A DNA stretch of 64,000 nucleotides, taken from Beverwykella pulmonaria (Eukaryota; Ascomycota; Dothideomycetes; Pleosporales; Melanommataceae). The translations under genes were made by a program, and so were the position numbers. Positions within the stretch are counted from its first letter, which is position 1, and each line of letters starts with the position of its first letter. The notes below the pieces were generated by a model that had not been told where the DNA came from, did no database searches, and worked only from the letters and a program-made list of their open reading frames with translations. The stretch lies in NCBI GenBank assembly GCA_001599595.1, contig BCHH01000009.1, positions 983,561 to 1,047,560 of the forward strand. The letters are read 5' to 3'. Positions 24,041 to 64,000 of this stretch are shown here, one piece after another.

Positions 24041-27000
24041 ATGTCTACGCCTAGTATCCCCATCGCTATCATCGGCATGAGCTGCCGCTTCGCCGGTGGT
24101 GCTACCGATCCCGAGAAGCTCTGGCAACTTTGCGCCGAAGGACGAACAGGCTGGAGCGAAATTCCCGAGGATCGATTCAACATCAATGGACACTACCATC
24201 CTCGGCCCGACAACCTAAACACAACGAATGTGAAAGGTGCTTGTTTCTTAGATGAAGATGTCGGCAACTTCGACGCTACCTTCTTTAATCTGCCTGCCGA
24301 GACTGCCGCATGCCTCGACCCCCAATTCAGACTCATGCTCGAAGGTACCTACGAAGCCTTCGAGAATGCCGGCCTCACCATGGCCGATGTCACAGGCTCC
24401 AACACCTCCGTATACGCTGGGTCCTTCTTCAAGGACTACCATGATGCAGGCCTCCGCGACGTCACCACCCTGCCGCGGTTCTTCCTGGTCGGCGTGGGCT
24501 CAGCCATGGCATCTAACCGACTATCGCATTACTTCGATCTGAGGGGGGCGTCAATGTCCATTGACACGGGCTGCTCAACGACCTTGACAGCGCTGCACCA
24601 GGCGTGCAATGACCTCCGCAACGGCGAGTCCAGCATGAGCGTAGTATCAGGCGCGAACTTGATGCTCAACCCGGATATGTTCATCACGATGTCTTCCATC
24701 GCGCTGATCTCCAAGGATGGCCGCTCTTTTGCGTTCGACAGCCGCGCAAACGGATACGGACGAGGAGAAGGCGTGGCGACTATTGTGCTTAAGCGCCTCG
24801 ACGATGCGATCCGCGACGGTGACCCCATTCAGGCTGTCATCAAGGAGAGTGGTCTGAATCAAGACGGAAAGACAGAAACTATCACCACGCCTAGCCAGGC
24901 TGCACAGATCGCGCTCATGCAACGTGTGTACAAGAAGGCCGGGCTCGATCCGAAAGACACTGGGTATTTTGAAGCACACGGGACGGGAACGCCCACCGGT
25001 GATCCGCTGGAAGTTGGTGCTATCGCGGCAGTGTTCAAGAACTCTCGGTCTACCGACACACCGCTCCCGATTGGATCGATCAAACCTAATGTCGGCCACA
25101 CTGAGTGTGCCTCCGGCCTAGCGAGTATTGTCAAAGTCGTCAAGGCTCTCGAAAAGGGTTTGATTCCTCCAGCAGCGAATCTTGAAACGATCAATCCGAA
25201 GTTGAAGCTCGGAGAGTGGAACCTAAAGGCAAGCGTTTTCTAACTAAAAGCCTCTAAATATGAAACTTCACATACTAATATCTCAGTTAGATCCCTCGTA
25301 CAGTTGAGCCCTGGAACTCGACTCTCCGTCGCGCCTCGGTCAACAACTTTGGTTACGGCGGTGCAAATTCACACGTCATTCTCGAGAACTATACCTCCCC
25401 AAGCATCACTTCCAATAGTAGCACGTCCCTAGCCTCTAAAGTCTACGTGCTCAGCGCCAAAGATGAGCACGCCGCGAAAGCCATGGTATCTAACCTGCGC
25501 GACCACCTTCTCGACATCAGCGACAACGCCGCCTTCCAGAACGACCTCGCATACACACTCGGCCAACGTCGTTCCGCATTCCCCTGGGTAGCAGCTACAC
25601 CTGCGTCTTCTCTCTCCAGCCTCGTACAGCTCATCGACGCAGGGAAGATGAAGCCGAGACGTAGAAACGACACCCCACGACTCGGTTTCGTCTTTACTGG
25701 CCAGGGAGCACAATGGTGGGCCATGGGCCGTGAGCTCATCTCTACGTATCCAGTCTTTCGTGAGACACTGTGCGAGGCGGAGGGGTACTTGCGCGAGTTT
25801 GGTGCAAAGTACAGTCTAATGGAGGAGTTGTACCAGAGCGAGAAGACAACGCGAGTCAATGAGGCAGCACTGGGACAGCCGGTATGTGTAGCTGTGCAAA
25901 TCGCGCTCGTGCGGCTCTTGGAGTCTTGGGGCGTGAAACCCACTGCCGTAACAAGCCATTCCAGCGGCGAGATTGCGAGCGCATATGCTGCCGGGGTTCT
26001 CAGCCTGCGCAGCGCTATGGGCGTCGTGTATGCTCGGGGTACCCTTGCCGCTGATGTAGCACGATACTCGACATTGGGTCCGGGTGGCATGATGGCTGTC
26101 GGTCTTGGAGTTGAAGATGCAGAGAAGTACATCGCTCGTGTTACTGCTGGCCGCATCATTGTAGCGTGTCAGAACAGCCCAAGCAGCGTGACCATCTCGG
26201 GGGATGTCCCCGGAATTGAAGAGATGGAGACGCTACTCCAGGCCGACAAGGTTTTTGCGCGAAAGCTTCAGGTCCCCACGGGATATCATTCCCATCACAT
26301 GGAACCACTTGCAAAGCCCTATGCAGAGTGGTTGAATGCAAACATCAAGCCCGAGCCCCAAATGAACGGAGTCATCTACTCGTCGCCTACGACCGGCAAA
26401 CGGATGACGAACGTGGAGGAGATCGGCGCAGCAGACCACTGGGTGAAGAGCTTAACCCAGCCAGTACTATTCGTCGAGTCCTTCACTAATATGTGCTTCT
26501 CCGCCCCTGGCAAGCCCAGCGACGTCGACATGGTCATAGAACTTGGCGCCCATCCCGCTCTCTCAGGCCCGATCCAGGACATCAAGACCCTCGACGTCTT
26601 CAATGGAACAACTGTCGGGTACGGCAGCTGCTTAGTCCGCAAGAAGAACGCCGTCGACACGATGCAAGCGCTTGCGTGTGAGCTCATTCACAACGGCTTC
26701 CCTCTCAATATGGCTGGTGTCAATCTGATCACTCAAGGACGTGTTCTGACCAATCTCCCTAAGTACGCTTGGAACCATCAGAGCCGCCACTGGTACGAAC
26801 CACGTATGAACAGGGCGCACCGAATGCTCTCTGAGGGGCCTCACGATCTACTCGGCTCCCTCGTCACTGGCACCAACCGAATCAACCCCTCTTGGCGGCA
26901 CGTCATCAAGCCCTCGTCCATGCCCTGGATTCGAGACCACATGCTGCAAGGCACGACCGTTTACCCCGGTGCAGGCTTTATCTGCATGGCACTCGAGGGT

Positions 27001-30000
27001 CTCATTCAATCTGAGCAGGGAAATGCCAAAGCCATTTCTGGCTACCGCGTGCGCGACATCGACATGCTCGCTGCACTCGTAATCCCAGAGGGCGAAGACG
27101 GTGTTGAAGTGCAGCTTTCGCTTAAACCATGCGGCGACAAGGCCATCTACGCCAAGGGTTGGAAAGAGTTCCAGGTCTTTTCCGTCTCGCACGACGATAA
27201 GTGGAGCGAGCACTGCCGCGGCTTGGTGTGCATCGAGTATGAGCGCAAGGGAACTCCATTGCTTCCGGTAGCTATCCGAAAATCGACCGACTATCGCGTC
27301 CGTGTCAGCCCAGCCGACGTGTATGCCTCTATGCATCGTGTAGGCATTCAGCACGGCCCCATCTTCCAGAACCTAAAGGCAGTGCGAGCACGCGGGCAGG
27401 GCTCCTTGGCGACCATTGAGACGGTTGATACCGCCGCTGGAATGCCGTACCAGTTTGAGCACTCGCATGTCATCCACCCAACAACGCTCGACACCGTGTT
27501 CCAAGCCATCTACGCGGCACTGCCGGCTGCTGGAGCAAATCTGCCATCAGCGCAAGTTCCGCGTTCCATCAAAAATTTGTGGATCTCGGGCAACATCAGG
27601 CATGGTCCTGCCAACTCATTCCATGCCTTTTCCGAGGTGCGCGACAACGATAAGCAAGGCTTCAAGGCCGCCGTCACTGTTGTAGACGAAGAGAAAGAGA
27701 ACGTTGTTATCACCATTGAAGACTTCCTCTTCCAGTCCATAGGCAGCGCTCTTGGAAACCGGGGACCGTGCGAGAACGACAAGTTTCTTTCGTCCCAGTG
27801 GGTTCCAGATGTAACTCTGATGGCACCGAGACTGCTCAAGCAACAACTGGCTTGCGAACCAGACCTCATGGAGGCACAGACTCTTGCTGAAATCAAGCTG
27901 GTCTGCGCGTGGTTCCTTGAGGAGGCACTGGCAACCATTGCCCCAGCAGAAGTTTCGAGCATACAGGGCCATTTCAAACGTTACTACTCGTGGATGAAAC
28001 TCCAGGTCGCTAACAGCCAGCCAACTCCAGCCACTGCACAGGAGAAGGCCGCACTAATCGCGAAGATTGAGACCAGCAGTGTTAATGGCGAGCTTGTCTG
28101 TAATCTCGGACCGCACCTAGTCGACATCCTCTGCGGACGCGTGTCGCCCTTGGATCTGATGCAGGATAACCAGCTTCTGTACCGCTTCTACGCCGAGGGA
28201 CTAAAGCTCGACCGCAGCCGCAAGCAGATGGCAGAGCTAGTCCGCCTGTACGCTCTGAAGAACCCGCGGGCCAAGATGCTTGAAATTGGGGCCGGCAGCG
28301 GTGGTGCAACACACCACATTTTGAACGCACTTGGAGTTGAAGATCCGCTCTCCGCATCCTACGACTTCACCGATGTCTCTGACTCCTTCTTCGAGGCCGC
28401 TGAGGAGGACTTCCAGAGTTGGAAAAGCCTTGTCTCATTCAAGAAGCTGGACATCGAACAAGATCCTTCAGCGCAAGGCTTCGAGACTGAATCATACGAT
28501 CTTGTAATCGCCTCGCAAGTCTTGCACCGCACACGCTCCATGGACGAGACGGTGGCCAACGTGCGGAAGTTGCTGAAGCCGGGAGGCAAGCTCATCATCA
28601 TGGAGTCGACTAAGGACCAGCTTGACTTCCGCATGGCCTTTGGGTTGCTGCCGGACCAGTGGCTAGGAGAGGAGGAGCACCGACTTTTGACACCGTCTTT
28701 GACAGTAGACATGTGGAACGATGTGCTTCAGAAAAATGGTTTTGTTGGATCTGACGTTGAAGTCCACGACTGCGAGAGCGACGAGCTATATTCCTACAGT
28801 GTAATCATGTCCTCTGCAAATGCAGCTCCCCCAGTCTATCACCCGGACGTCGTTATCGCCGTGTCGACGCCTGCTCCGCCTGAGAACTGGCTCAACAGTT
28901 TGGCTGACTTTATTGTCGCCCTCACTAGCGCCACGCCTACTGTCCAGCACTACGATAACCTTGACTGCGAAGGCAAGATCGTTGTTTTCTTACCAGAGTT
29001 ATCTGCCTCTCTCCTCAGCAATCCCACTGATGAGCAATTCGAAGCCATCAGGAACATCTGCACCAAGTCTAAGGGTATGCTATGGGTCACACGAGGGGGA
29101 GCAGCCGAGACGTCGGATCCGTTTTCGAGTCTATCCCAAGGCTTTCTGCGCATCCTGCGCCTGGAATACGTCGGAAAGCTGCTCGGAACTCTCGATCTTG
29201 ACCAGGCTGAAGACATCTGGTCTACCTCATCCGCGTCGTCTATCGCTAATGTGTATGCAAGCCTCTTCGCCAATGCCTCCGAGACCAAGCCGCGCGACTT
29301 CGAGTTTGCAGAACGAAATAGTACCATCAATATCCTCCGGTACTTCAAGGACCACCCACGCAACAAGACGTGGTTCCCCGACACGACCGAGGCAAACACC
29401 ACAGTGCTGCAACGGTTCGTCCACAGCACGCCGCTGCACCTCACTATCGAAAATCCTGGACATCTCGACAGTCTTGTCTTCGTGTCTAGTCCGGACTACG
29501 CAGACAGGGAAATTTCTATCGACGAACTCGAGATCGCTCCACAATCATTTGGCATTACATCCCGCGACGTCAGCGTCGCAACCAATGCTCTTCAGGACAG
29601 GGCCATGGGCTTCGAGTGCGCAGGTATTGTGACCCGCCTTGGAGCTTCTGCCTCAGCGGAAGGCTTCAAGGTTGGTGATCGCGTCGCTGTCTTGCTGAGG
29701 GGTGAGTGTGGCAGTTTGGTTCGTGTACCATGGACCAGCGCAGTTCGAATTCCCGCCGCCATGGGTTTCGAGCTTGCCGCCGCCCTGCCAGCAGCGTATG
29801 TGGCCGCATGGATTTCGCTCATGGATACAGCGCGTATAGAGAAGGGCGACAGTGTGCTAGTGCATGACGCTGGGTCAGCGGTTGGCCAGGCTGCGATTGC
29901 CCTCGCCAAATACGTCGGCGCGGAAGTTTTTGCTACCGTCAGCAATGCTGAGCATGGCAGTTTCCTCAGACGCGTCCTCGGCATCAAAGCGGACCGTATC

Positions 30001-31627
30001 TTCCCCAGCACGGACTCGGGTTTTGCTAGAGCGGTGCTTGAGAAGACAAAGGGTCGGGGTGTTGATGTTGTCCTCAACACCCTTGAAGGGTCCCTCCTGC
30101 AGGAGACACTGAATTGCGCCGCCGCACTCGGCCATTTCATCGAACTCGGCAAGCGTGATCTCGAGCAGAACAGCCGCTTGGACATGGGTGCGTTTGCTCG
30201 CGGTGTCACCTTCTCGGCAATTGATGTCGCCATGCTGGCAGAGCACAAGGGGCGCCAGGTCAGCCGGGCGTTGAGCTCTGTCCTCGACCTCATGAAGGGT
30301 AGGAAGATCCGTGGTGTGCCCATCTCAGTGCACGATATCTCGGACGTTGTCCAGGCCTTCCGGAATGCACAGTCAAATAGTTCGCCAGGAACCGTTGTTC
30401 TTTCTGTTAAGCCTGATAGCATGGTCCCAGTACGTAAACCTCATTTCCAATTATTCGAGAGAGCTCTTTCTAACAATCAAGCAGGTCACTCGCCAGACAC
30501 CCACTGTAAAGCTGCACTCCGACGCATCCTATGTAGTTGTGGGTGGGTTTGGAGGTATCGGTCAGAGCATCTGCCTCTGGCTCGCTGAGCATGGAGCCAA
30601 AAATTTAATTGTGCTCTCTCGAAGTGCCAATGCAGCGGACAAGGCAGCACCTCTCCTGGCCGAGTTGGACAATTTAAATTGCCGAGTCAAGGCAGTAGCC
30701 TGCGACATTGCCGACGAGGCGGATGTCTTACGCGCAGTCGAGGCTTGCCAGGACATGGCTCCTATTCGTGGAGTTATCCAAGGCGCTATGGTTCTTCGCG
30801 ACTCCATTCTCGAGCAGATGACACTGTCCGACTACGCGGCTGGTCTGCGTCCCAAGGTCCAGGGAACCTGGAATCTGCACACGGCTTTTGCTTCGACGCC
30901 GCTCGACTTCTTCATCATCCTCTCCTCTATCGCCGGCGTCATTGGAATCGCATCCCAGTGCAACTACGGCGCAGGCGGCGCCTTCCAAGATGCGCTCGCA
31001 GCATACCGAACAAGCCGTGGCCTTCCCTGCGTCTCGATCGATATTGGAGCCGTAAAGAATGTCGGCTATGTTGCTGAACATGCAGAGACAGATGCCTATC
31101 TCAAGAAGCAAGGTCACATGGTACTTTCAGAGGGCGATGTGCTGAAGTCTCTCGCCTGCGCCATAACTTCTCCATTTGCCACCCAGCTCGTTTTCGGCAT
31201 CAACACAGCGCCAACCAGCGCGCTATGGGACGAAGGCCCTGCATCCCGCGATCTTCGCTTCTGGCCCGCCAAGTTCCGTAGCACCGGCGACGAGGGCGCC
31301 AATTCAGGAATGGCAGACACGCTTGCCGGCAGAATCGCATGTGCCAAAACGCTCGAGGAAGCCGCCATAGCAGTGGGTGCTGAGATAACAGCCAAGATTA
31401 TGGACATCTTCATGATTCCGGAGGCTGAAGTATTTCCGAATAAGCCGATGGCGGAGTTCGGTGTGGATTCATTGACGGCGGTCGAGTTGAGGAATGCATT
31501 GGCTACAAAGGCGAGTGCGGAGGTTTCAATCTTTGATATCATGCAGAGTCCGAGTTTGAGTGCGTTGGCGGTGGCCATTGCCGGGAAGAGTGCGCATCTT
31601 AATCCGGCGCTTGCACCCGTGGCGTGA
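24041..31627 (+). CDS. Highly reducing polyketide synthase, KS-AT-DH-MT-ER-KR-ACP
   Basis: Exons 24041-25228, 25291-30429 and 30485-31627 are whole codons and give 2489 residues. KS (1 to about 430; DTGCSTT in place of the usual DTACSSS, EAHGTGT, GHTECAS), AT (about 520-830; active serine in SHSSGE, where the usual GHSxG glycine is Ser), DH (about 895-1190; [10 protein letters not shown] and [10 protein letters not shown]), MT (LEIGAGSGG near 1394), ER ([12 protein letters not shown] near 1922), KR (GGFGGIG near 2128, NYGAGGAF near 2269) and ACP (GVDSL near 2435). There is no release domain, so transfer to a partner such as the acyltransferase at 46000 is likely. Intron 1 has a GC donor (AAG|GCAAGC). 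It probably makes a reduced, methylated acyl chain. Confidence 0.95.
25229..25290 (+). other. GC-AG intron in the HR-PKS gene
   Basis: The reading frame requires removal of 25229-25290. The donor is AAG|GCAAGC and the acceptor TTAG|ATC, with a TACTAAT-like branch point near 25273. No GT donor nearby keeps the frame. GC-AG introns are a known minor class. Confidence 0.75.
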
Positions 31628-32925: not shown

Positions 32926-34862
32926 TTATACCTCCGGCCACGAAACCATCTGCAGCCTATTCAAACAATCCTGCGCGATCTTGTTCACATGGCCCAATCC
33001 CCGCAGCACGTTCTGCAGCGCTAGCTGCATCTCAAAGGTGGGGTCGAGGTGGTTATTCGAGCTGAGGAAGTCGCCGCAGAAGTAGAGGAGGACGGGTGTG
33101 AAGGGGTGTATCTGGGCTTCTCATTAGTCCCTTGATCCAAGCCGTACGAGTTGGGCGAGGAAGGCTCACCTTGAAATAGCTCAGCTCAATCAGCGCCTTA
33201 GACAGCGTCACCATCTGCTGCGCCGCTGCCAATGCCCTCCTCTCGTACTCCGCCGCCACGTCATGATAATCCTCCATTCCCCACGGCGCCGTCTGGCTCG
33301 CCTTGAATAGCATCAGGACCGCTGCCTGCGCCGCCAGGGCAGTGAAATGCGGCATTGGATCCAGGAATACCAGCGCACATGGATCATGTAGGGACATGCC
33401 TTCGATACTCTGCGTAAGACGCGCATCGAGTCTTTGTTGACGATCCCAAAAGTCCAGCGAGATCCAACCATGTGTATGCTCGACAGTACCTTGCTGTTGA
33501 TGCGACAGCGACTGTCCGCATATTGTGACGAGTCGGATTGATTCAGTAAATGTCGAAGGCGTTTTGGGTTGGGAGTCGTGCTGGAGGTCGGAGAGGAATT
33601 CCATGACCACTGGTTGGTCGGACTGGAATTCCTTCTCGGGAGAGGGGAGGCGGGTTAGGATCTATGCATCTTGGTTAGAACCATGGTCCAGGTTCAAGTG
33701 CAGGCAATACCTACAACATGCTGATCAAACGTCAATGGCAACTGGTCTAGCAGACTGATAATCCGATCAATCGTATACGCCATCCAGAACGTCCGTCTCC
33801 TCTCCTCGATCTCTGCAAAACTCAGACTCTCTAGTGAAGTCGCCGCAATCCCATCCCGTCCATCCACGTTATGCAGCTTCATCAACACGGCAAAGCGAAA
33901 GCACTTTCCTGCGCTCATCCACCCTCTTCGATATCCCACACGCATGAACTCGTATATGGCTAGCAAAGCCCAGGCCTGCACCTGTTCGATTTGTATGCAG
34001 TCGGCCTGCAGCGACTCAAGTTCTAGGTTGTCGATCATGAGGCGGGTGTATGCGTAGAGGTCGTCTTGGATGTACTGAAATTGGCTCGAGGTCGAAACGG
34101 CGAGTGTCCACATGGCGTGCTGCAGGCAGGAGAAGGCGTCGGCCTCGCTCCCGCATCGTGGCCGCCGGGCTCGTGAGAAGTAATGTCGTTTGCTGAGGAT
34201 GGGGCAGAAATTGTGGACTCTATCAAAGTAGAGATGATCCCTACAGTTACGATCCCATTAACTCCATCTGAGTTTCAAGGTGGAAAACAAGACAAACGTA
34301 CAGATCTGATCGCATCAGGTCTGAGATGCAGTCCACGGGTGACAATCCGAGCATCGGCAGTGACATCGAAGAATTGGACGGCGGAGTTACGAGGTCCACT
34401 GCGGAGCTATTCGAAGAGCCGCTATTTGTGGCCTCCTGCTCAGCACTATTCCGTCCGTTTTGGGCAAGAAAGTCTGTGAAGGATTGGTGACTCGGAGCGG
34501 CGAAGGTGTCGGTCTCATCAGGAAAGGCCATGAACTCTTCATCACCAGTCTCCTCAGAGGCGCCATCGTTGCTTATTCGGCGCTCTAGTGCAACTGTAGA
34601 GAGGTTTAGATGGCGAGGCAATATCCATAAGCTGGATGAACATACCAATTCGAGACTGTAAAGCTCGCAGATGTCCTCTTCTCGGACCACGAGGCTGTCG
34701 AGTCGTTGTGGTAACGCAGGTAGCACCCGAGTCTCGACAGACGCCACACTGAGGCTGGCCTCTATCACAGCGTAGTTTACGTCTGCGGCACTCATCGCAG
34801 GCTAGACCGGCCTGTTGGCGAGGGCGTGGAGTGGTGGTGGCGGCTGGGCTTTCGGACGACAT
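32926..34862 (-). CDS. Zn(II)2Cys6 transcription factor (probable cluster regulator)
   Basis: Five exons (34862-34646, 34593-34302, 34240-33715, 33661-33170, 33111-32926) close in frame to 570 residues. The N-terminal zinc cluster is CDECRRRKLRCDRGQPQC followed by GVCRDSGATC, then a basic linker (RQPRGPRRGHLRAL) and a short coiled coil (LQSRIVALERRI). The fungal-specific transcription factor middle homology region follows (LYFDRVHNFCPIL, RRRTFWMAYTIDRIIS, RLPSPEKEFQ). It lies between the HR-PKS and the ketoreductase and is the only DNA-binding protein in the cluster, so it probably activates it. CGG half sites fit this family. A CGGAGTA element about 200 bp upstream of its start (35063) could be autoregulatory. 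Confidence 0.92.
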
Positions 34863-37475: not shown

Positions 37476-38546
37476 ATGCGTGTTCTCCTCACCGGTGGAA
37501 GCGGTTTCATCGCCGCACATGTACTCAACACGCTTCTCGAACGCGGGTAGGAATACATAGGCAATTCTTCACATTCCCACCTAGTTAACCGTTGTCAAAC
37601 TAGACACACCGTGGTCACCACCGTCCGCAGCCAAGACAAAGCCGATAGGATCAAAGCCGGACACCCCACACTTGGAAAAGAAAAACTCGACTTCGCCATC
37701 GTGTCAGACATTGCGCTTCCGGGCTCTTTCGACTTGGCCGTCCAGTCTGATCCTCCTTTTGACGCGGTGATCCACACAGCCAGTCCGCTCAACCTCAGCG
37801 TCAGCGATGTGCAGAAGGAGGTCTTGGATCCCGCCATCATTGGGACGACAGGCATACTGTTGTCTGTGGCACGCTTTGCGCCGACTGTGAAGCGCGTCGT
37901 GGTTCTTTCCTCTTTCGCTGCCATGATCGATCTCACTAAGGGTGACCGGCCGGGGCACACATACACGGCAAATGACTGGAACCCGATCACGCATGAGGAG
38001 GCGCTCGTAGACGCCATCGCAGGATATCGAGGCAGCAAGACCTTCGCAGAGCGGGCAGCGTGGGAGTTCATGGAACGCGAGAAGCCTGGATTTACGCTGA
38101 CGACGCTGAACCCGCCATTTGTGTTTGGGCCCGTTGTGCAATACCCTGGGTTGTCGCTGGACGCTCTAAACGCATCGAATAGACGGTTTGTTGCGTTCCT
38201 CAACGGCGTCATCACGCCTACGGTCTTTTACGCATGGGTTGACGTGAGAGATTGCGCCCTTGGACATGTGAGGGCTATGGAAGAAGAGAGTGCCGCCGGG
38301 GAGAGAATCTTCTTCACATCTTCGGAGCAGTTCTGCAACAAGGATATTTTAGAGGTCATCCATAGCGAGTTTCCAGAGCTACGAGAGAAGCTGCCTAAGA
38401 AGGACAGCTGGGACAGTGTCGGATTTCCAGAGGCCGGCGTGTACAAGGTCGCTGCAGACAAGGCGAAGGAACTGATTGGAAGGGATTTCGTTCCATTGAA
38501 GGAGTGCGTGGTGGAGACGGTTAATATGATCAAGGGGTTTCTTTAA
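37476..38546 (+). CDS. NAD(P)H-dependent ketoreductase, extended SDR (dihydroflavonol-4-reductase type)
   Basis: Exons 37476-37546 and 37604-38546 close in frame to 337 residues. The N-terminal Rossmann motif TGGSGFIAAHV and the catalytic YRGSK (YxxxK) are intact, and VVVLSSFAAM supplies the serine region. Family members reduce aldehydes or ketones of small metabolites. In azaphilone clusters an enzyme of this class (AzaE type) reduces the side-chain ketone of the released NR-PKS product, which is the job proposed here. A CGGAGTAA-N5-CGG element sits upstream. The first exon is only 71 bp and is needed for the nucleotide-binding motif. The extended SDR fold is sure; the substrate is inferred from context. 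Confidence 0.9.
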
Positions 38547-38843: not shown

Positions 38844-39247
38844 TTCGCGCATGAAGTCAGCGGGAGCTCGATCGGCGCCCACTAGCGTCGATCGGTCCAA
38901 ACGTCAATTCCGTATCGGGTTACAACCATCATTTCACGATTCGTACCCGAAGTGAATATATTTGTTGTATCTCCAAACTCTCTGCTCTGTCGACACGCTC
39001 GTATTGCTCTACTACTTGTCTCTTTCTCTATTGTGCCCCTCATAGTACCAGAATACGGACAACCTCATATCTTTTCACATTCCTCGCCGTGCTGGCCTCT
39101 ATCACAACAGCTTCCCGCATACTTTGCGCCCGCAGTAAACACTCTCTCCTGCGCATTCCTCGCGGCACAGATCGAGGCTCTATTCGACCGCAGATCCGCC
39201 TCTCTTGTCGCTTCAACTCTCACTCAAAACACACCACCATCTCCACA

Positions 39248-40366
39248 ATGACGCCCACCAACAAAGCCGCATGGTTGACAGCCAAACAAGCCCGGCCTCT
39301 TGTTGTAAAAGATGCACCCTACACTGCACCCGGCAAGAATGAGATCGTCGTCAAATCGGCCGCCATCGCCATTAACCCAGTCGATGCCATGAAGCAGGCC
39401 ATGGGTGACATGATGATGGGCTGGATCAAATACCCCTTCATCCTTGGCGACGACGTAGCAGGCGAAGTCGTCGAAGTCGGGCCCGGTGTCACTCGCTTCA
39501 AACCTGGTGACCGTGTACTCGGTCACGCTGTTAGCATTGACAAGAGGAGCAATCGGGCCTGTGAAGGCGCATTCCAGGAATACGTTGTACTTCGCGCCAA
39601 CCTTGTGTCCCAGATCCCGGACAGTCTGTCGTATGAGAAGGCGTGTGTGTTGCCGTTGTGTCTCTCCACCGCGGCTTGTGGGCTTTTCATGAAAGATTTC
39701 CTCGCGCTCGAACATCCAACACCAAAGACGGCGAAGAACTCGACAGACCAGATTCTCGTTGTCTGGGGCGGCTCCACTAGTCTTGGCAGCAATGCTATCC
39801 AGCTTGCTGTCGCTGCCGGCTATCAAGTCATTACCACCGCATCCCCTAAGAACTTTGAGTACGTCAAGAAGCTTGGCGCCAGCCATGTCTTCGATTATCG
39901 TAGTACAACCGCCGTGGTTGACATCATTGCATTGCTCAAGGGCAAAAACTCTGCCGGTGCTATTGCCATCGGTGACGGGTCTATGGAAGCCTGCATCGAG
40001 ATCGTGGCCGCCTCATCTGGTCGCAAGTTCATCGCTCAAGCCAGCGTTCCGATGCCCGCCCAGATCCCGCCCAAGGGTATGGCGTTAGTATCTTTCATCG
40101 CTGGATTCCTTTGGTTCAACGTCTCGACGTTTGTCAAATGCAAAGTTAAAGGAATTGGATGCAAGTTCATCTGGGGAGACGATCTGATGGCGAACGAGGT
40201 CGGCAGCGCGATCTATGAGCACTTCCTGCCGGACGCGTTAGCAGCAGAGAAGTACGTCGCGGCACCAGAGCCGTATGTGGTTGGGACAGGATTGGAGTAT
40301 ATTCAGGAGGCGTTGGATGCGGTAAAGAAGGGTGTTTCAGCTCGGAAGTTGGTTGTGTTGCTGTGA
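39248..40366 (+). CDS. MDR-family oxidoreductase (stand-alone enoyl reductase / quinone-oxidoreductase type)
   Basis: This single-exon gene encodes 372 residues from the ATG at 39248 (context CACAATGAC). It has the GroES-like N-terminal domain (FILGDDVAGEVVEVGPGVTR, KPGDRVLGHA) and an NADPH-binding Rossmann domain (VVWGGSTSLGSNAIQLAVAA). The structural zinc cysteines of true alcohol dehydrogenases are not seen, so it fits trans-acting enoyl reductases and quinone oxidoreductases of PKS clusters (LovC or AzaJ type). The HR-PKS has its own apparently intact ER, so this enzyme may act after release or at selected elongation cycles. The ORF runs open upstream to 39089, but the first codon there is GTG, so no presequence is proposed. 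Confidence 0.88.
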   Translation: MTPTNKAAWLTAKQARPLVVKDAPYTAPGKNEIVVKSAAIAINPVDAMKQAMGDMMMGWIKYPFILGDDVAGEVVEVGPGVTRFKPGDRVLGHAVSIDKRSNRACEGAFQEYVVLRANLVSQIPDSLSYEKACVLPLCLSTAACGLFMKDFLALEHPTPKTAKNSTDQILVVWGGSTSLGSNAIQLAVAAGYQVITTASPKNFEYVKKLGASHVFDYRSTTAVVDIIALLKGKNSAGAIAIGDGSMEACIEIVAASSGRKFIAQASVPMPAQIPPKGMALVSFIAGFLWFNVSTFVKCKVKGIGCKFIWGDDLMANEVGSAIYEHFLPDALAAEKYVAAPEPYVVGTGLEYIQEALDAVKKGVSARKLVVLL

Positions 40367-40690: not shown

Positions 40691-40826
40691 AGCATCCTCC
40701 CTGCTCCTTTCCCTTTAAGAACAACATAAAACACCATTCAACACTCTGGTCCCTACATACTATCAAACACTTATCACTTTTATGCTTATTCCATCCCAAT
40801 TCCGTGTTCGTCAACAACAATTCACA

Positions 40827-41507
40827 ATGACAACTTCAGCTCCAATCTCTGTTCCTGCTCCTCTTCCAGGAACCGAGAAGGAGCCCGCTGTTGAAGTAAC
40901 CTCTATCCCCACCGCCCCCATCGACCCCATCAAACTCGCCCGCTGGGGTCCCCGTTGGTCTCCCTCATCCATCGCCACCTCCATCCACCAATACTCCCTC
41001 GAGACGGGCTGGGTCGAAGGCACCGTGTACCAATGGTCTGTGACACAAACTGACCACGATGACGTTGTGTTCCACACTGCTTTGGACGTCATGGCCGCCA
41101 CTCTGCACCGCACCAAGACCATCCTAATCCACTCTGACAAACTCACGGCCGAGGACTCCGTCGCCGTCGCAAATGAGATTAAGGACGTGGAGAGGACGAT
41201 GAGAGATCTCTTGTACCAGTTTACGCTGATTAGGCCGTTGGAGACGGATATCATGGCCTGGAATGTGGGGGTAGGGATGGAGCAGCATTATGGCTTGTTT
41301 CGCACTTTTGAGACTGCTGTTAGGGAGAAGCTAACTGGTGAGGGGTTGGTCGCGGCTGAGGAGGCATTCGGTAATTTGGATAAGATGTTTACTGAGACGA
41401 TTGAAGTGTTCAAGGGTCCTCCAGGGAGTAAGAGGCCGGAGGTGCCGGGAGAGAGGGTGATTGAGAGTGACAAGGCTGAAGAGGTGATTGTGGAGAAGTC
41501 CGAGTAG
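40827..41507 (+). CDS. Conserved-looking protein of unknown function, 226 aa
   Basis: I do not recognise the family. This single-exon ORF encodes 226 residues from the ATG in CACAATGAC (40827); an in-frame ATG at 40782 would add 15. The N-terminus is Pro/Ser/Thr-rich (to about residue 40). A globular part follows with many aromatic and helical segments (WGPRWSPSSIATSIHQYSLE, GVGMEQHYGLFRTFETAV), then an acidic, lysine-rich tail. There is no signal peptide or membrane segment. It lies between the MDR gene and the FMO-MFS gene, and its promoter has a variant of the cluster element, so a role in the pathway is possible. Confidence 0.72.
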   Translation: MTTSAPISVPAPLPGTEKEPAVEVTSIPTAPIDPIKLARWGPRWSPSSIATSIHQYSLETGWVEGTVYQWSVTQTDHDDVVFHTALDVMAATLHRTKTILIHSDKLTAEDSVAVANEIKDVERTMRDLLYQFTLIRPLETDIMAWNVGVGMEQHYGLFRTFETAVREKLTGEGLVAAEEAFGNLDKMFTETIEVFKGPPGSKRPEVPGERVIESDKAEEVIVEKSE

Positions 41508-42211: not shown

Positions 42212-45200
42212 CTAAGTTACCTTCGCACCCTTTTGCCTCACATCCTTCCATCCCATGAACCAGCTCACAAAAACACCCGTCACCGCCGTAGCAGTAGCAA
42301 GATAAAACGTGCGCCCCACACTCTTACTATACGCCTCCAGCAATTGCTGTAGCTGCTTCTTACTTACCAGATTTCTCATCGCTGTCGAACCAGCCTTGAT
42401 AATCGCGTTGGCATCGAGCGTCGGGGCGTATTCACGAAGAGTGGTGTTGAGAGAGTTCGTGAAGACGGTTTGCGCGACTACGGTCATTAGTGCACCACCG
42501 AGGTTCTGGCAGAAGACGAAGGTCGACATAGCGATGGGGATTTGGGTGGGGAGGAGGATGTTTTGGACGGCGATCATAGGCTGTTTGAGTTCGGGTAAGC
42601 TCAAGTTTAGAAGGTGACCGCTTGACCTAGAGAGGGAGAAATGGAGAGAACGTACCATCGGGAGAGCAAGTCCCCGACCCGTGCCAGACAGCAGTTGGAA
42701 GCCTATGAGCTGCGCCATTGTTCTTGATGGCGAGACGAGCGTCAGAAGTCCAGAGCCAAGAGAGTTGAAGACACCGCCTGTGACAATGAAAGGCAAGTAG
42801 TAACCGAATTTCTGGACTATAGAATTCAGTACGCATTTCCACCAACAGTATGTGGGAAAATCTTACCGAGCCTCCCCCCCAAAAGCGTGAACACAACCTG
42901 CGTCAAAATTGTAGGCAGGAAATGCACACCACTCTGAAACGGCGAATCGCCCCTCACACCCTGAAAATACAACGGTAGATAGTACGCCGTGACAAATACC
43001 GTGCCCGAAAGCAGCAAAATCGTGCAGCAACTTGCCCACACAATCCGCATCTTTAGCATCGAGAACGGGATCATCGCCTTGTCACCTTTGTGTGAATTCC
43101 ATGCACAGAAGATCGCAAACATGGCGATAGCACCACAAAACAGACCAATGATCTCAGCACTCTTCCAAGAGAACCTGTTTCCGGCAAAGTCGAGTGCCAG
43201 GAAGAGCTGAATGGCCGCGGGTGCGAAGAGCGCAAAGCCGATGAGGTCAAATTCAGAGAGTGGGTGACGCAGAACAGTTTTCCAGTGCGGTTTGGCGATC
43301 TGGTCTGGGATTCTTACCCAGAGGAGGAACGGGAAAAGGAGGCCACCGGCAGGGAGGTTGATGTAGAAACCTGGGATTATTCAGTAGGTAGACGGGAGCT
43401 CGAAGAGTGTACGTACACCAGCGCCATGATACGTATTCCGTGATGGCTCCTCCAATAAGTGGGCCAGCTGCTGCACCAAGGTTTCCAACTGAATGCTTCA
43501 GTTAAATTAGAGGCGAGGGATCGAACCAGATGTGACTTACAAGCCATCATGAATCCAAGCATACCCGGACGCTGCTGCGGCGCGACACAAGAATGAAGCA
43601 TGGTGAACCCTCCATTCATAAGGCCAGCGCCTCCCATTCCTGCAACTGCTCGGCCAAGGATTAACATTATCGAAGACTGGGCCGCACCGCAGAGCGCGGA
43701 TCCAATGTTGAAGACCGTGAAGAAGCAAAGAAAGAGCATCTTGGAGTTGAGGCGAGCATACATTTTTCCAGTGAGGGGCTGGAGTGACGCACTGGCATAA
43801 GCATCAGCATATATTCAGGTCGTGGGGGATGGAATATTTCACCAGACGAGTTGGTATGCACTACCATACCAGCCGACATCAAGCAGGGAATTGAAGTCAT
43901 CAGTAATGTACGGGATCGCCTGAACTTAAAATTAGTTATAATCACCTAATTTCCAAAGAAGTATTTACGTACAGTAGACAGAATCGACATATCCAACATC
44001 ATCAAGAAGTACACAATTGTGAACGAAACCATTACAGCTGCCAATTTGAATCCTGACAAGTACACATGCTCTGTTGGACTTGGAGTGACTAGGGAGACCT
44101 CAGTTGTGGAAGTGTTTGCCTCCTTGTCGGTAATAGCAATGGAAGGTGCCTCCTTCATGCCCCTTACAAACTGATCCAATGCATCATCCACCATGGCATC
44201 TACATCAAAGTCCCAGATCTTGTGCGAGCGAGTATAGATCTCGTGCGCCATTTTCTTGTGATTGGAGCCACATTCTGGATCTCTGAACTCGTATACGTCA
44301 CCGATGATGCGACTGCTGTCGACAAGCCACTGTGAACGCTCGTAGCGCACGTCGTTGTACGCCTGGAGCGCGATTCGTACGGCTAACGACCGATCAAGTG
44401 GGTTGTGTTTTGATGCAGCTTCCAGAAGGACGGCGAGAGCGAGACAGTCTTCGATGCCACACCCTGCACCAGCCCCGTGATGAGGAGCTGCCGCATGAGC
44501 AGAATCGCCAGCTAGGCAAAGACGGCCAGACACATAAGTGGGTACAGGATGCCTGCGCGTGTCAAACACGGCCCATTTGTCGAGTTGCTCAGGCAATAGA
44601 TCCATGAGCCTCCGAACTACAGGGCTGAAAGTGGAAAATGCCTGCGTCGCTTCGCTTTTGGTAGCTGGGGCAGTGAGCTTTCCATCTGGTGCTGTCCACT
44701 CGCCGGGATCAGTGACAAAGGCAACAACATTCAAGATTGTGCCGCCTGCTACTGGGAATGTTACTGCATGCGCATTGGGGCCGAAATGCATAAGTCGATT
44801 CGAAGTTCTGAACTTCCCGATGGCGGCTCTGGCCTTATCCATTGGGATGAGGCCCCGAATGGCATACTTGTGGCTGTAGGACGGATGCGACGCGGGATTG
44901 TTGTCTCCAAGCATGAGTCGTCTCATCTTTGAGCGGATCCCATCACATCCAATAACTATCCTCTGGTCAGCAAATACTTTTCTAGGAGCTTTGTATATCA
45001 CTTACCAACATCAGCCGTGGTAGTCGACCCGTCTCGGAACGACAGCAATATCTTCTCATTATCCCCTCTTTCAATTGCAGAAACAAAGTCTTTCTCAAAC
45101 TCGACATGCTGCTTTGGAATATGCTGCACTAACTCTTCCAAGAAATCTGGCCTTCGACACCCTTCAAACCCTCTTTCACCAAGATACAACTTCAACACCG

Positions 45201-45519
45201 TCTCTTCGTGCTCAGGATTCTTTGTATCCCAATTATACCCGTCACAGTAGTAGAAGTTGTCCTCAGCATTCTGCGCTGCAACTTTCCGGAATGCAGCGTG
45301 GATGCGCGGATCCAGCGCTGTCATGGCTCGTTCCGCATTAGGAGTGAAGCCGATTCCAGCACCGATTTCGCGGAAACTATGGGCACGCTCGTAAACTTTA
45401 AAATTGATGTTGCGGCGAAGGAGGCCGATGGCCAAGGTTAGGCCTGTGATGCCGCCGCCGATAATGGCAACTTCGAAAGGGGCTTCATCCGAGGGCATTT
45501 TGGAATTGGATTCCAGCAT
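42212..45519 (-). CDS. Fusion protein: FAD-dependent monooxygenase joined to a 14-TM-type MFS transporter
   Basis: Eight exons (45519-45006, 44955-43973, 43919-43843, 43791-43541, 43488-43417, 43370-42867, 42816-42656, 42580-42212) close in frame to 976 residues. Residues 1 to about 437 are a whole class A FAD monooxygenase: GGGITGLTLA, VIGCDGIRS, and LAGDSAHAAAPHHGAGAG. Residues about 438-976 are a whole MFS drug transporter: YLSGFKLAAVMVSF in TM1, MMLDMSILSTAIPYIT, GRAVAGMGGAG, WRWCFYINLPAGG and FVSWFMGWKDV near the end. Exon 2 (44955-43973) runs through the junction with no stop, and no intergenic space remains. In azaphilone clusters a separate enzyme (AzaH type) hydroxylates and dearomatises the NR-PKS product, and a separate MFS pump exports. 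Here both sit in one chain. An alternative start at 45498 shortens it by seven residues. Confidence 0.87.
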
Positions 45520-45999
45520 TGGATTGTCTTGTGGTGGAGAAGAGGATCGCTGGGTCGAAATTGATATGAGAAATGGCTAGTTCAAGACAATTTGCAGGAT
45601 ACGTGGTGCTTACTTCTTCCTCTTGACTTCTGCTGACCACCAATCTTCGCCGCATCTCCATGGTGGACATGGTAACTCCGGAACGGAATTTCAGTGGCCT
45701 TTCGGGGAAACTATTATTGAATTCTGGGGAATGGGTCAGTAATGTGGAACATTAGAATTGAATAGCTCCGAGAGGTGGTTGAGATGGGCGAACTTGTCGC
45801 ATGGTCGGAGCTCGGAGTATCTTGGAAAGTGTGCGACCATCCCTAGGTAGGCGTGACTGGCTGTTCTCTTGTGCCAAGCTGAACGCATTACCGTCGAAAC
45901 CAGTCAGTAAGCTTTCATATTACGATTTTTGGTTAAAAGTCGTTGTACCCATTTGCAAACCTACATTTCAACTCTTCGATATCCCTACTCCACTTCAAC
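45520..45999. promoter_or_regulatory. Bidirectional promoter of FMO-MFS and acyltransferase genes
   Basis: This 480-bp region between divergent genes contains TCGGAGCTCGGAGTA at 45805-45819, a doubled TCGGAG with 7-bp phase that includes the cluster 8-mer TCGGAGTA (45812-45819). Confidence 0.6.
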
Positions 46000-47367
46000 A
46001 TGGCAGACTTCACTCGCAACGCCGATGTCCTCGGCCAGTTTCCTCAACTGAAGACCTACAATCATGGTGTCTCTCTCTTCCCCATGCGCGACGGCCTCAC
46101 GCAAGAAATAATCGTCAATGCCCTCGAAGACGCAACATCCAAGATCCTGACTGCCATCCCGTGGCTCTCTGGCCAAGTCGTCCACACACCCGGCGAAGAT
46201 GGCACTTCAGGCATTCTCCATATGGTGCCATGGCCCAAAGATGCTGCACCCAACAAGCTCCTTAAGGTCAGGGATTGCTCCGACCTCCTTCCCGCGTACG
46301 CAGAGATGCTAGCTGCAGAAGCACCATTCTCCATGCTCGACGGCGAGCTCATCTGCCCATTCCCTGGTTTCCCTCTCCCATACGACACTGCAGTGATTGG
46401 GCCCGCCCCTGCTACCATGCTGCAAGTTACCTTCGTGAAGGACGGCTTCCTGCTCACCTACTCAAATCAGCACAACATGGTCGATGGAACGGGCCTCTTC
46501 ACCATCATCACGCTCCTATCCGCTGCTCTTCGCGGTGAACCTTTCCCAGTGGACATCATCGCGGCGGCAAACCAAGACCCCGCAACTGTAATCCGGCTAC
46601 TGGATCCATACGAGCCGATGCTGGACCACAGCTATCTCCTCAAGCCCGACCCTGCGCCTGGGCCAGTCAAGCCCCGCGCCACTCCCAAGTGGACTTACTT
46701 CCGCTTCCACAAAGACAAGCTGCCCGAAATCAAGAAGCTGGCTGAAGACCCAGTAGGCTTTGACCCAGATGTTCCGTTCATCTCGCCCAATGACGCGTTG
46801 TGTGCGCTATTTTGGAAGAGCTTGGCCTCTGTAAGAATCAAGACTGGCCTTTCTCCAGATGCAGTCTCAAAGTTCTCACGCGCCATCGACATCCGGCCTT
46901 CCGTTGGCGTTTCCCCCGGATACCTCGGGCAAATGGTGTACCAATCCGCCACGCGCCTTTCCTTCCAGGAGCTCGTTGATATGCCCCTTGCAACTGTAGC
47001 AACGCGTCTGCGCAAAGATCTCGACGACGTGAATAACGACTTCTCTGCGCGTTCATATGCAACATTTGTTGACTCGGTGGAGGACAAGTCGCAGCTGATG
47101 TACGCTGGTGGTCTCAATCCCGTAACGGATGTTGGTCATTCTTCTATGATGAATGCGAAAGTAAACGGATTTGATTTTGGAATACTGGGGAAGCCGGATC
47201 TAGGCAGAAGGCCCAAGTTAGCGCCGCTGGCAGGTGTATTCTACATCTACCCGCCTGAGACTAGTGGAGACTTACTGTTGTTGCTTTGCTTGCCCGAGAT
47301 GGAATTGAGGGGCCTGAGTGAGGATCCGGAGTGGAGCAGGTGCACTGTCATGATAAATGAGGATTAG
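46000..47367 (+). CDS. BAHD/trichothecene 3-O-acetyltransferase-type acyltransferase
   Basis: This single-exon gene encodes 455 residues from the ATG in CAACATGGC (46000). The catalytic HxxxD motif is present as NQHNMVDGTG, and a DFGWG-like element near the C-terminus reads FDFGILGKPDLG. Enzymes of this family move acyl groups from CoA or ACP thioesters to hydroxyls. The azaphilone family member (AzaD type) joins the HR-PKS chain to the NR-PKS-derived core, which fits a cluster whose HR-PKS has no release domain. It shares a promoter region with the FMO-MFS gene. The family is sure; donor and acceptor are inferred. Confidence 0.9.
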   Translation: MADFTRNADVLGQFPQLKTYNHGVSLFPMRDGLTQEIIVNALEDATSKILTAIPWLSGQVVHTPGEDGTSGILHMVPWPKDAAPNKLLKVRDCSDLLPAYAEMLAAEAPFSMLDGELICPFPGFPLPYDTAVIGPAPATMLQVTFVKDGFLLTYSNQHNMVDGTGLFTIITLLSAALRGEPFPVDIIAAANQDPATVIRLLDPYEPMLDHSYLLKPDPAPGPVKPRATPKWTYFRFHKDKLPEIKKLAEDPVGFDPDVPFISPNDALCALFWKSLASVRIKTGLSPDAVSKFSRAIDIRPSVGVSPGYLGQMVYQSATRLSFQELVDMPLATVATRLRKDLDDVNNDFSARSYATFVDSVEDKSQLMYAGGLNPVTDVGHSSMMNAKVNGFDFGILGKPDLGRRPKLAPLAGVFYIYPPETSGDLLLLLCLPEMELRGLSEDPEWSRCTVMINED

Positions 47368-59574: not shown

Positions 59575-61028
59575 TTACTCGTAGATATAGCAGAACGGTC
59601 CGTCGATAGTACTGACCAAGTCCCTGATCGCAAATGTTCCCCCGTTCTCATACTTTACCCCATTATACCCCAAGTCCATGGTTGTATTTAGTGTTCCATT
59701 TGCACTTGGCGGGCCTGTTCATTCCCCGTCAGCTTTCTCGAATTCTCAATAGCAAATGCGGACATACTGTTCGAGATCGTTAAAGTTCCCGTGACCTGAT
59801 TCAACCTCTTCTCCAAGTCTTGTGCCTGCCAAAGAGTCCAGATGTGATCGACCTGCGCATGGTGAAAGTAGAAAGCTGGATCTCCATTCCCAGCATAAAG
59901 GTCATCATTCATGCCACCAATTCCTGCATGTCCGGCGGAGTGATGGATATCCAGGCGTGCTGAGAAGCTGAAAAGGTCGGGTTGGCTAAGCGTGAATGTG
60001 ACGTTTTCGTAGTTCAGAGAGCTCCGCGTTGTGCTTGGGCGAAAGTCTCGGCGGACGCAGCGGGGATTGTACTCAAATGCATTGGAGACTGTTGGCCTAG
60101 ATTTTGTTATCATTTGACGAAGAGCTAATTTAGTACAGTGATTTTACTTACGGGCCTTGGGGGCCCAAGTTGTTGGTTATATTTGCGAAAGGGCCATCGA
60201 GAATGCATCCTCCGCCTGTACCGGGAGGGATCTGTCCAGCTCTTTGCGGGACAGTAGGGATGTAGATTGTAGATGCGTTATGCGTGATTGCCTCTCCGTT
60301 GCTGCCAATGCCTCCTGGCTCGGTGAAAAGAGCATTTGTTGCTGGTGTTGCATCGCCAGCTGACCACTCCCACTAGCTTGTAGTCAATATTTTCGTTATT
60401 TTCTTTTTGAGACGGTGAAATTATTATAGAATCGGACTGGAAGAATTTTGACTTACGTATGGCTGTGCGCCCGTATACCCACATTCATCTCTGAGTGACT
60501 TTTCCCAGGCATGTACGAAGAGGCGATGCCACGGTAAGAAGTAAGCCTAAAATTTGACCTCAGCTGCCTTCCGCTTCATATGATAGCTGAAGTTGCGATG
60601 TTACCGATAAATGCACCCAAAGTGTTTGATTGATATGTGCGGCATGTATATCATCAAACCGACTCCTCGCTCCGGGCACAGCCTCTGGAGGCGAGATTGG
60701 AGGTAGGGTTCTTAAACAATTTACAGCGTCGGCCCACTCTTTGCGGGCCTCCAGAGTGAGGGTGCTCCTGCGATGGCCATCAGATTGGAGTGCGTAGTGG
60801 AATAGAATATTTGCGTCGTAGAGAAACCTACCATTCTTTACGAACAATAACGTTGTTCAACGTACAACCACTTTCACGCTTTTCCAAAACAGCCTTTTGG
60901 GCTGTAGTGGCTTGTGAGCGATAAAGGTCATATTTTGCTTGTGCTTCTGGGAAGGGCGATGGGGCAGCTTTGATGAGCTGAGCTGAAGCAAAGACGGCCA
61001 GCACAGCAATTCTTATCATAGAAGTCAT
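59575..61028 (-). CDS. Secreted tyrosinase (type-3 copper oxidase)
   Basis: Six exons (61028-60832, 60767-60605, 60546-60457, 60372-60152, 60096-59768, 59714-59575) close in frame to 379 residues. A signal peptide (MIRIAVLAVFASAQLIKAAP) is present; ATGs at 61028 and 61019 are both possible. The CuA site has HAAHINQTLWVH and PWHRLFVH; the CuB site has DIHHSAGHAG and GDPAFYFHHAQVDHIW. The last exon restores the family end (SPPSANGTLNTTMDLG, DGPFCYIYE). Such enzymes oxidise phenols to quinones outside the cell, for example in melanin formation or phenolic detoxification. All copper ligands look intact. Confidence 0.88.
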
Positions 61029-62152: not shown

Positions 62153-63350
62153 TCACAAGCCCGGAACATACTGCCTCGCAGCCCTCCTTACACTCTGTGC
62201 GCCAACGCACTGGTAGTAATAGTCGTTCTGCTTCTGGCACGTAGCGCCTGCAGCACATGTCGTCGCCCCCTTGTGATTTATTCCACCGCATTGCCCGTAC
62301 AGAGCAACTATACCAACACTCGTGCTGGTAGGTGCTGGCACAGTCATAGAAATACTTGGGAGGAGGGTCGGCGCTGCGGTGTCCTTTCTCGAAGATGCTG
62401 CGACCAGAGTTGCAAGTGTAGTGGGCACGACCAACGTTGAGAGAGCTGCAGTGGGCACCGTAGTATTTGCAGATTGCATCAAGCTCATGGTTGAGATTGC
62501 GAGAACGACAGAGCTAGATGTGTCTGCAACTACAGCGCTGCTTGTCGTAACAGCTACAGTGGTTGAAGATGCGACAACGAGAGCACTCGAAGCGACAGGG
62601 ACAGTTCCAGCGCCTCCACACGAAGCCACGGCGCCGCCTGGTGCGGTATAGTTCGTAGGATTAAAGCCGTTATACACGTTGGGAATGTAGATATTTGCAT
62701 CTTCGGCGTTGTACGCGCCCGGGATGGCAATGGTAGGGGTACAGGAGCCGGAGCCAGTCCCACTGATTTTTAGCTGCGCACAACCGATGTAGAATTGGGC
62801 TCCGCCTATCGTTTGTGCGCCGTGAAGGGCGAGCATTTCGGAGCGAAGCTAGTGATATGTGAATGAGATTCTTGCATGAAGAATGGGGCATGAGGCTTAC
62901 GAGGTACTCGCCAGTGGCGAGGCCGGTTGGAAGAGAAAAAGTGTAGTTTCCACCCGCAGCCATCAGCACTTCGTTTGCCCACTTTCCGTCAACGTAGTCC
63001 AATTCATCGATCTTGAACCATCCCGCGCCGATACCCGATTCCTGTGCGGCATCGCCGACAGGACCAAACAGAAAATGTGTGATTGGGCCAGGATGTCCAG
63101 ACGTATCCCAGCCAACGGTAATCTTATCACCTTCAGCAGCAGCAATCGTCTCAACGCCTGACGGAACAGTGCTACCATCGACGTTGCACGCCATGTCGTT
63201 GCTAGTGACATCTGTCACGGGGCTGTTGCTGGGAGGCATTCGAAGTCCGATTTGGTAGCCAGGCGATACATCGTTGATCCATATTTGGTGGAGGTTTTGG
63301 TGAGCGGATGCTACAGCGAGGAGAGAGAGAACTGTGAGTGAATGAAACAT
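62153..63350 (-). CDS. AA9 lytic polysaccharide monooxygenase with CBM1
   Basis: Exons 63350-62901 and 62848-62153 close in frame to 381 residues. The signal peptide ([16 protein letters not shown]) is followed directly by His17, the copper-brace histidine expected at the mature N-terminus. The second copper histidine (ALHGA) and axial tyrosine (QFYIGCAQL) are present. A long Ser/Thr/Val-rich linker leads to a C-terminal cellulose-binding CBM1 ([20 protein letters not shown]). It should cleave cellulose oxidatively outside the cell with H2O2 or O2. The upstream ATG at 63431 would block secretion and was not chosen. Confidence 0.93.
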
Positions 63351-64000
63351 AGTGTTTCTGGTTGAAGAGAGTTGATGCAGTTGAATTCGAGATATATAGA
63401 CAATGAATGTAGTGAGGAACACCAGGTTCAAGATTGGATGAATGAAAATTTATAAAAGAAGGTAGAGTCAGCTAAGGACTGTAACAAACATAAACGGCAG
63501 TACGGGAGAGAGAGGATGAGGCGATATCGACTCTATTTGAAGGTGTCGCAACCATCTCCTTCGCTCCCTGCATTTCCCGGCTATCCACTTGTTTGCACTC
63601 AAACGAGGCTAGCGGACGATCATGTCTTTGACTTCAAACTAAATCTCTTCCTTCCACAATATTCCAACACCTACAAGCCGGAAAAAAATTCTGGGTCCAT
63701 CAACTCCTAGAGTTAAAAGCGTTCTGTATCTTTTCTATACAAACCATCTCTTCATCTTCGATGGGGAAGAAATTACTGTACCAAATGCCGTGCCTGGCAG
63801 TCTTGAGCTTCCGCTTCGTTTAAATCCGAGCCTAGGCGCTGAGTTAAGGACAGAAAACGTGGTCAGGGGCACTTAGACTGAATCGGGCAAGATGGCGTGT
63901 ATCTATTGGATATTCGTGAGGTTCATGTTTCGCTGAAACAATGACGGTGGTCAAAGCTCACGGAATAATATACTTCAGGAGTCTTGGCTATGACCACCCC
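63351..64000. other. Flank of the LPMO gene, no gene seen
   Basis: This contains the LPMO promoter and right-edge DNA with only one short unsupported ORF (63516-63710). Confidence 0.45.

Follow-up and report, generated by a model that had tools for sequence, protein, structure and literature searches.

Does a gene that appears to encode a FAD monooxygenase (FMO) and an MFS pump as one protein represent a genuine joining of an enzyme of secondary metabolism to a pump, and if so, how did it arise and what might it do? The gene lies on the minus strand (42212-45519) of a 64,000-nucleotide stretch of Beverwykella pulmonaria DNA, referred to here as the window, whose positions are used throughout unless another contig is named. 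The coupling of late steps in the making of reactive polyketides to their export has been hard to study, as enzymes and pumps usually have a gene each and may touch only briefly, if at all. A conserved pair that nature has joined covalently would amount to an enzyme-pump complex of fixed make-up whose partners one introduced stop codon could separate, making coupling directly testable, and the fusion tells which of the transporters of a cluster goes with which enzyme. The domain families and the type of cluster are already known; a conserved covalent FMO-MFS pair was not found described in the literature searched (titles and abstract openings, with most subscription papers outside this scope), and the accessible parts of PMC4205913 and PMC6985275 contain no mention of one. 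Databases already contain fused proteins, for example under the name 'MFS-1 multi-domain protein'. Like MamZ of magnetotactic bacteria, in which, according to the accessible text of PMC3971196, a ferric reductase domain is fused to an MFS domain with a proposed role in coupled redox and transport, the protein is a natural oxidoreductase-MFS fusion; unlike it, MamZ carries an unrelated, bacterial reductase that acts on iron.

Gene model and completeness of the two halves

The gene was spliced by hand at GT..AG introns on the minus strand from 45519 to 42212, resulting in eight exons (45519-45006, 44955-43973, 43919-43843, 43791-43541, 43488-43417, 43370-42867, 42816-42656, and 42580-42212) and a protein of 976 amino acids. 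All seven introns are of the GT..AG type and 46-75 nt in length, and the spliced frame contains no internal stop. The Pfam models FAD_binding_3 and MFS_1 matched this protein at residues 16-354 and 484-885, respectively. A single exon (44955-43973) encodes the GD motif of the FMO (GDSAHAAAPHHGAGAG), its C-terminal IWDFD region, the linker, and most of TM1. The spliced model thereby agrees with the preliminary description of this locus, which had one exon crossing the junction without a stop, placed Met438 at the ATG at 44158, and saw no intergenic DNA between the two parts, which lie in one continuous frame. The linker itself (44078-44179, minus strand; about residues 431-464, or ~35 amino acids) contains Met438. 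Stops interrupt both of the other forward frames across codons 425-470 of the fusion gene. When codon usage was scored after training on five other window frames, the linker reached +0.22 bits per codon in frame, and all five alternative frames came out negative. This lends weak support to the linker being coding, since on either side of it a reverse frame rivals the true frame (0.26 vs 0.28 at the end of the FMO and 0.24 vs 0.19 in the TM1 stretch).

The FMO half (44180-45519, minus strand; residues 1 to about 430) is interrupted by a single intron (45005-44956) and contains R205, W299, G321-D322, P329, and H330. Its closest PDB sequences are SorC (401 bits), TropB (383 bits), and AfoD (357 bits), with a salicylate hydroxylase at 199 bits. 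When the AlphaFold model of the homologue from Pyrenophora teres (P0001), which stands in here for the window protein, was submitted to Foldseek, TropB, SorC, and AfoD occupied ranks 1-11 of the 50 matches shown. These sequence scores and fold matches place the FMO half in the dearomatising SorC/TropB/AfoD group, in line with the earlier description of a dearomatising enzyme, with the activity being predicted. If a column is called conserved when at least 95% of 78 unfused FMOs agree (64 columns), the window protein keeps 63, the exception being A323S, and six full-length relatives keep 62-64. R205, W299, and P329 align with R201, W300, and P330 of SorC, which the accessible text of PMC11934079 names as catalytic or flavin residues, and R205 also corresponds to R206 of TropB. 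R205 and W299 are present in all 13 fused rows of the alignment and P329 in 12, the remaining row (P0037) having a gap. Val249 occupies the place of Glu245 of SorC, a position described as hydrophobic in AzaH, AfoD, and TropB in the same portion of PMC11934079. An equivalent of Tyr239 of TropB is absent from the 13 fused rows, all of which have Phe238 instead; this is not read as a loss of function because unfused relatives, such as P0038, P0039, and P0069, carry Phe there too. Solved members of the AzaH/TropB/SorC/AfoD group stand alone at ~440 amino acids, whereas the FMO of the window continues into a membrane pump. Three Penicillium FMOs of 441 amino acids (P0064, P0075, and P0081) consist of the FAD domain only and bear the misleading name 'Vacuolar basic amino acid transporter 3'.

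The pump half (42212-44077, minus strand; about residues 465-976) has 14 membrane helices as counted by eye on the P0001 model. The PDB sequences closest to it are EfpA, EmrB, and an antiseptic resistance protein, which we take to be QacA, and EmrB and EfpA were found at ranks 45-50 of the Foldseek search as matches to the second half of the P0001 model. The family is presumably that of the DHA2-type 14-TMS exporters. Of 93 columns conserved in at least 95% of 79 unfused MFS proteins, 91 are kept in the window protein and 81-91 in the six full-length relatives, the value of 81 belonging to P0005, a model with a damaged TM1. Judged by the MFS_1 match, these columns, and the helix count, the MFS half is a complete 14-helix exporter, for which export is predicted; compared with other exporters of the DHA2 type, including Hfaza1C of Hypoxylon, it is complete but bears an enzyme of 430 amino acids at its N-terminus. 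The numbers of conserved columns kept in the two halves (63/64 and 91/93) rule out that they are truncated pieces, in keeping with the earlier statement that both parts are of full length. As far as sequence can tell, the fusion is a genuine end-to-end joining of two complete proteins in one open frame.

Relatives and the junction

The preliminary description had pointed to related genomes as a place to look for the same two-domain architecture, and it was found there. A homologue search scored 7996 candidates, and among the 33 proteins listed, six from six other species cover 99% of the fusion at 67-72% identity: Pyrenophora teres (P0001, 72%), Polyplosphaeria fusca (70%), Curvularia kusanoi (69%), P. 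tritici-repentis (P0005, 69%, with a gene model that skips part of TM1), Ascochyta lentis (68%), and Bipolaris zeicola (67%). Shorter models with both domains come from Ascochyta clinopodiicola (P0007, 756 amino acids) and Pleomassaria siparia (P0008, 576 amino acids). Five further models, P0009 and P0037 from Neofusicoccum parvum, P0035 from Macrophomina, P0036, and P0102, cross the linker, enter TM1, and end thereafter, with P0035, P0036, and P0102 ending at the place of an intron after the residues ILST and P0009 and P0037 ending somewhat later. The start of P0149, named a partial permease, lies inside the C-terminus of the FMO, two fragments (P0138 and P0146) reach no further than the edge of TM1, and the divergence of P0104 falls within the linker. 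A taxonomy look-up placed Polyplosphaeria and Pleomassaria in the Pleosporales and Neofusicoccum in the Botryosphaeriales, all of them Dothideomycetes; the remaining genera with fused proteins presumably belong to these fungi as well. For the Botryosphaeriales (Neofusicoccum and Macrophomina), the models listed comprise the FMO half, the linker, and the first membrane part, and a complete MFS half was not found among them. The case for a shared fusion in that order therefore rests on shortened models, a limit that slightly lowers our confidence in the explanation preferred below.

The end-to-end homologues bear directly on the idea that a stop or spacer was lost through an error of sequencing or assembly and that the fusion was thereby created. 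Such an error had been called improbable before any relatives were known, and with the same architecture present in proteins of other species and with both the reading frame and the splice sites intact, and nothing found in its favour, it is ruled out for practical purposes. The joined architecture, as read from these proteins, is real and has been kept across several fungi.

A different possibility is that the locus gives rise to separate products, one with only the FMO and one with only the MFS part, by alternative splicing, intron retention, or a start at Met438, with the long frame being minor. Of 14 candidate GT..AG introns listed, three shift the frame. One of these three is a candidate cryptic intron of 79 nt in the linker (44167-44089, minus strand) with a GTAAGG donor and a CCCTAG acceptor, the removal of which, as read from the sequence, would stop the FMO 18 codons later, ahead of TM1. 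Retention of the intron just past TM1 (43972-43920, minus strand) would likewise lead to a stop soon after TM1, which is where the models P0035, P0036, and P0102 end, and the models of relatives that end there may reflect real intron retention. A Met is found at the place of Met438 in 10 of 19 aligned rows; however, it is missing from the other nine, including three of the six full-length relatives, and in P0001 and P0005 the first Met of this stretch is that of 'YMSGF', immediately before TM1. These absences make it less likely that Met438 generally serves as an internal start. As intergenic DNA is absent and end-to-end models exist in six species, which also argues against two products, we give this possibility little credence.

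The reading of the locus as one continuous polypeptide is compatible with the model of P0001, which has a mean pLDDT of 89.9 and a pTM of 0.58, with values below 50 for residues 437-459 of the linker. Two confident domains are thus predicted, connected by a disordered linker, with a relative placement that the model does not fix.

Unfused counterparts and the origin of the fusion

FMO and MFS proteins of azaphilone clusters had been described beforehand as separate, and two cases agree with this. In Hypoxylon, Hfaza2D (FMO) and Hfaza1C (MFS) are named as separate proteins. In the genome under study, a second locus on contig 18 contains an NR-PKS (~19.5-27.9 kb) flanked by a separate FMO and a separate MFS gene ~19 kb apart. 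The FMO (30.46-32.06 kb) is 34-41% identical to that of the fusion and reaches a stop codon shortly past the IWD motif, and the MFS protein (9.5-11.2 kb) is identical to the pump half at 45% of positions in its main part and 32% at its end and has an N-terminus of its own with a Met. This FMO (C18:30461-32057) is crossed by a proline repeat of ~50 codons, with the frame of the FMO differing before and after the repeat and one N nearby; the gene may be broken, or the repeat may have produced an artefact. Another FMO (36-39% identity) and an MFS protein are encoded as separate genes ~5 kb apart on contig 14 (C14:466061-474071), where none of 12 other cluster queries matched within the 20 kb examined. 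A close unfused paralogue was not found in the same genome, the six FMO matches that follow by E-value being 35-42% and the next MFS match 45% identical. A genome-wide scan with the Pfam model FAD_binding_3, in which 18 of 104 candidates were scored and the window gene was not listed, is uninformative on paralogues.

Three Aspergillus models (P0013, P0014, and P0021) were considered as fusions of an FMO with an acyltransferase. They look like merged models of neighbouring genes, and P0013 is without the N-terminus of the FMO at the joint; possibly, these combinations of a TRI-like acyltransferase and an FMO represent another type of fusion within this same part of the pathway.

Trees of both halves were built by a quick method. 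The FMO tree contained 95 rows, for which 82 unfused or other listed rows were chosen and most short fragments left out, and the MFS tree contained 89 rows, including 81 of the 120 MFS rows listed. All 13 fused FMO halves fell, together with P0034, into one clade of 14 rows (SH-aLRT 100), and the eight fused MFS halves, together with the partial model P0149, into one clade of nine rows (support 100). The next larger supported sets around these clades comprise 29 FMO rows and 32 MFS rows, both of which include unfused proteins from Xanthoria, Pleurostoma, Cryphonectria, and Thozetella, with Hfaza1C of Hypoxylon also in the MFS set. Three of these genera provide unfused FMO and MFS pairs apparently from one genome each, namely Xanthoria (P0047/P0152, with the names given as X. 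aureola and X. calcicola), Pleurostoma (P0057/P0159), and Cryphonectria (P0148/P0168), which does not by itself prove that the genes are clustered; no such one-genome match was seen for the Thozetella proteins (P0062/P0177). In Pleopsidium flavum, P0142 and P0150 are encoded on one contig of 51,285 bases (locus tags M1830_009016 and M1830_009009), and the FMO of this species falls outside the 29-row set. The topologies suggest that two members of an azaphilone cluster were probably fused once in an ancestor of these fungi and then kept. The stem of the fused MFS clade is long (0.71) compared with that of the fused FMO clade (0.23), which suggests, on branch lengths, that the pump may have changed faster around the fusion event.

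A rival reading gives the joining no mechanism of its own. Co-regulated cluster neighbours might have been merged by the loss of a stop and a spacer, with the chimera being tolerated or useful for equal dosage, and the poor conservation of the linker (11-16 identities over 28-34 positions in comparison with the six full-length relatives), its predicted disorder in P0001, and the existence of FMO and MFS as separate genes in other clusters speak for this. On the other hand, the full-length architecture has been kept in six further species with near-complete conservation of the family residues, and a fusion that is only tolerated might well have come apart again. P0034 from Diplodia seriata, a protein of 438 amino acids that ends where the linker starts and sits within the fused FMO clade beside Macrophomina, may be one such case; from its sequence, it would be either a fission or a cut gene model. 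We regard a real fusion with no special mechanism as a serious but doubtful possibility.

Cluster context and what the joining may do

The surroundings of the fusion were annotated by scanning 36 of the 58 open frames of at least 150 amino acids in the window. NR-PKS frames (15235-23506, minus strand) encode SAT, KS, AT, ACP, C-methyltransferase, and reductase (NAD_binding_4) release domains, and HR-PKS frames (23960-31627, plus strand) encode KS, AT, DH, MT, ER, KR, and ACP domains. These are followed by a fungal-specific transcription factor domain (33694-34257, minus strand), a ketoreductase-like member of the NAD-dependent epimerase/dehydratase family (37551-38546, plus strand), a member of the zinc-type alcohol dehydrogenase family (38855-40366, plus strand), and an open frame with no Pfam match (40719-41507, plus strand). 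The divergent neighbour of the fusion is a TRI-like acyltransferase (45937-47367, plus strand). On the flanks of the cluster are frames for rhamnosidase-like, PLD-like, tyrosinase, and AA9 proteins (8899-14025, 59688-60143, and 62153-63449). With an NR-PKS that has a C-methyltransferase and reductive release, an HR-PKS, an FMO, and an acyltransferase, the cluster conforms to the azaphilone type implied by the preliminary description, with the product being predicted. It resembles the two-PKS azaphilone clusters (azanigerone and group B of the Hypoxylaceae, as presented in the accessible text of PMC8403587) in having two PKSs, an FMO, an acyltransferase, a transcription factor, and a transporter, and differs from them in that the FMO and the transporter are one gene. 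Group B, as given in that text, is without a ketoreductase gene, whereas the window has an epimerase-type frame; the FAD-dependent oxidoreductase that PMC8403587 assigns to group B was not found among the 36 of 58 window frames scanned.

Taken with this context, the fusion is probably expressed as a single polypeptide in which an AzaH/TropB/SorC-like FMO is connected by a flexible linker to a DHA2-type exporter, with a single origin and subsequent retention, so that a late biosynthetic step would be anchored to the membrane in a 1:1 ratio with the exporter. The N-terminus of 14-TMS MFS proteins is cytosolic. The FMO would therefore face the cytosol with its supply of NAD(P)H and FAD, and the pump would anchor it on the cytosolic face of whichever membrane the pump occupies. 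That membrane need not be the plasma membrane, since the locations given for other MFS pumps of clusters include the ER or vesicles besides the plasma membrane (accessible text of PMC9134587). Polyketide oxidation and the subsequent acylation would then take place next to the exporter, and the finished azaphilone would leave through the pump, either to a vesicle or to the outside of the cell.

The preliminary description had gone further, with the pump tethering the FMO to the membrane and a reactive quinonoid product being handed over to it. Tethering would follow from the anatomy of the protein. The hand-over is not supported, as the linker is predicted to be disordered, the P0001 model does not fix the placement of the domains, and an acyltransferase is encoded next door. 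In its strict form, the idea is that the dearomatised o-quinol passes from the active site of the FMO into the pump and is exported before acylation, which would suit an FMO of the dearomatising group that is physically linked to a transporter. In related azaphilone chemistry, however, the substrate of the acyltransferase PigD is the open o-quinol that AzaH produces (accessible portion of PMC10979483), and with an acyltransferase gene adjoining the fusion, the product of the FMO is probably not the exported compound. We consider such channeling unlikely. A more ambitious version, in which an enzyme-exporter chimera couples the committing dearomatisation to vectorial transport, would have a reactive o-quinol or isochromene enter the pump directly and be completed within a vesicle or extracellularly, with occupancy of the pump controlling the enzyme; this appears rather improbable. 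Given the PigD chemistry and the acyltransferase next door, direct hand-over is less favoured than an arrangement in which oxidation and acylation take place together at the membrane and the finished compound is exported.
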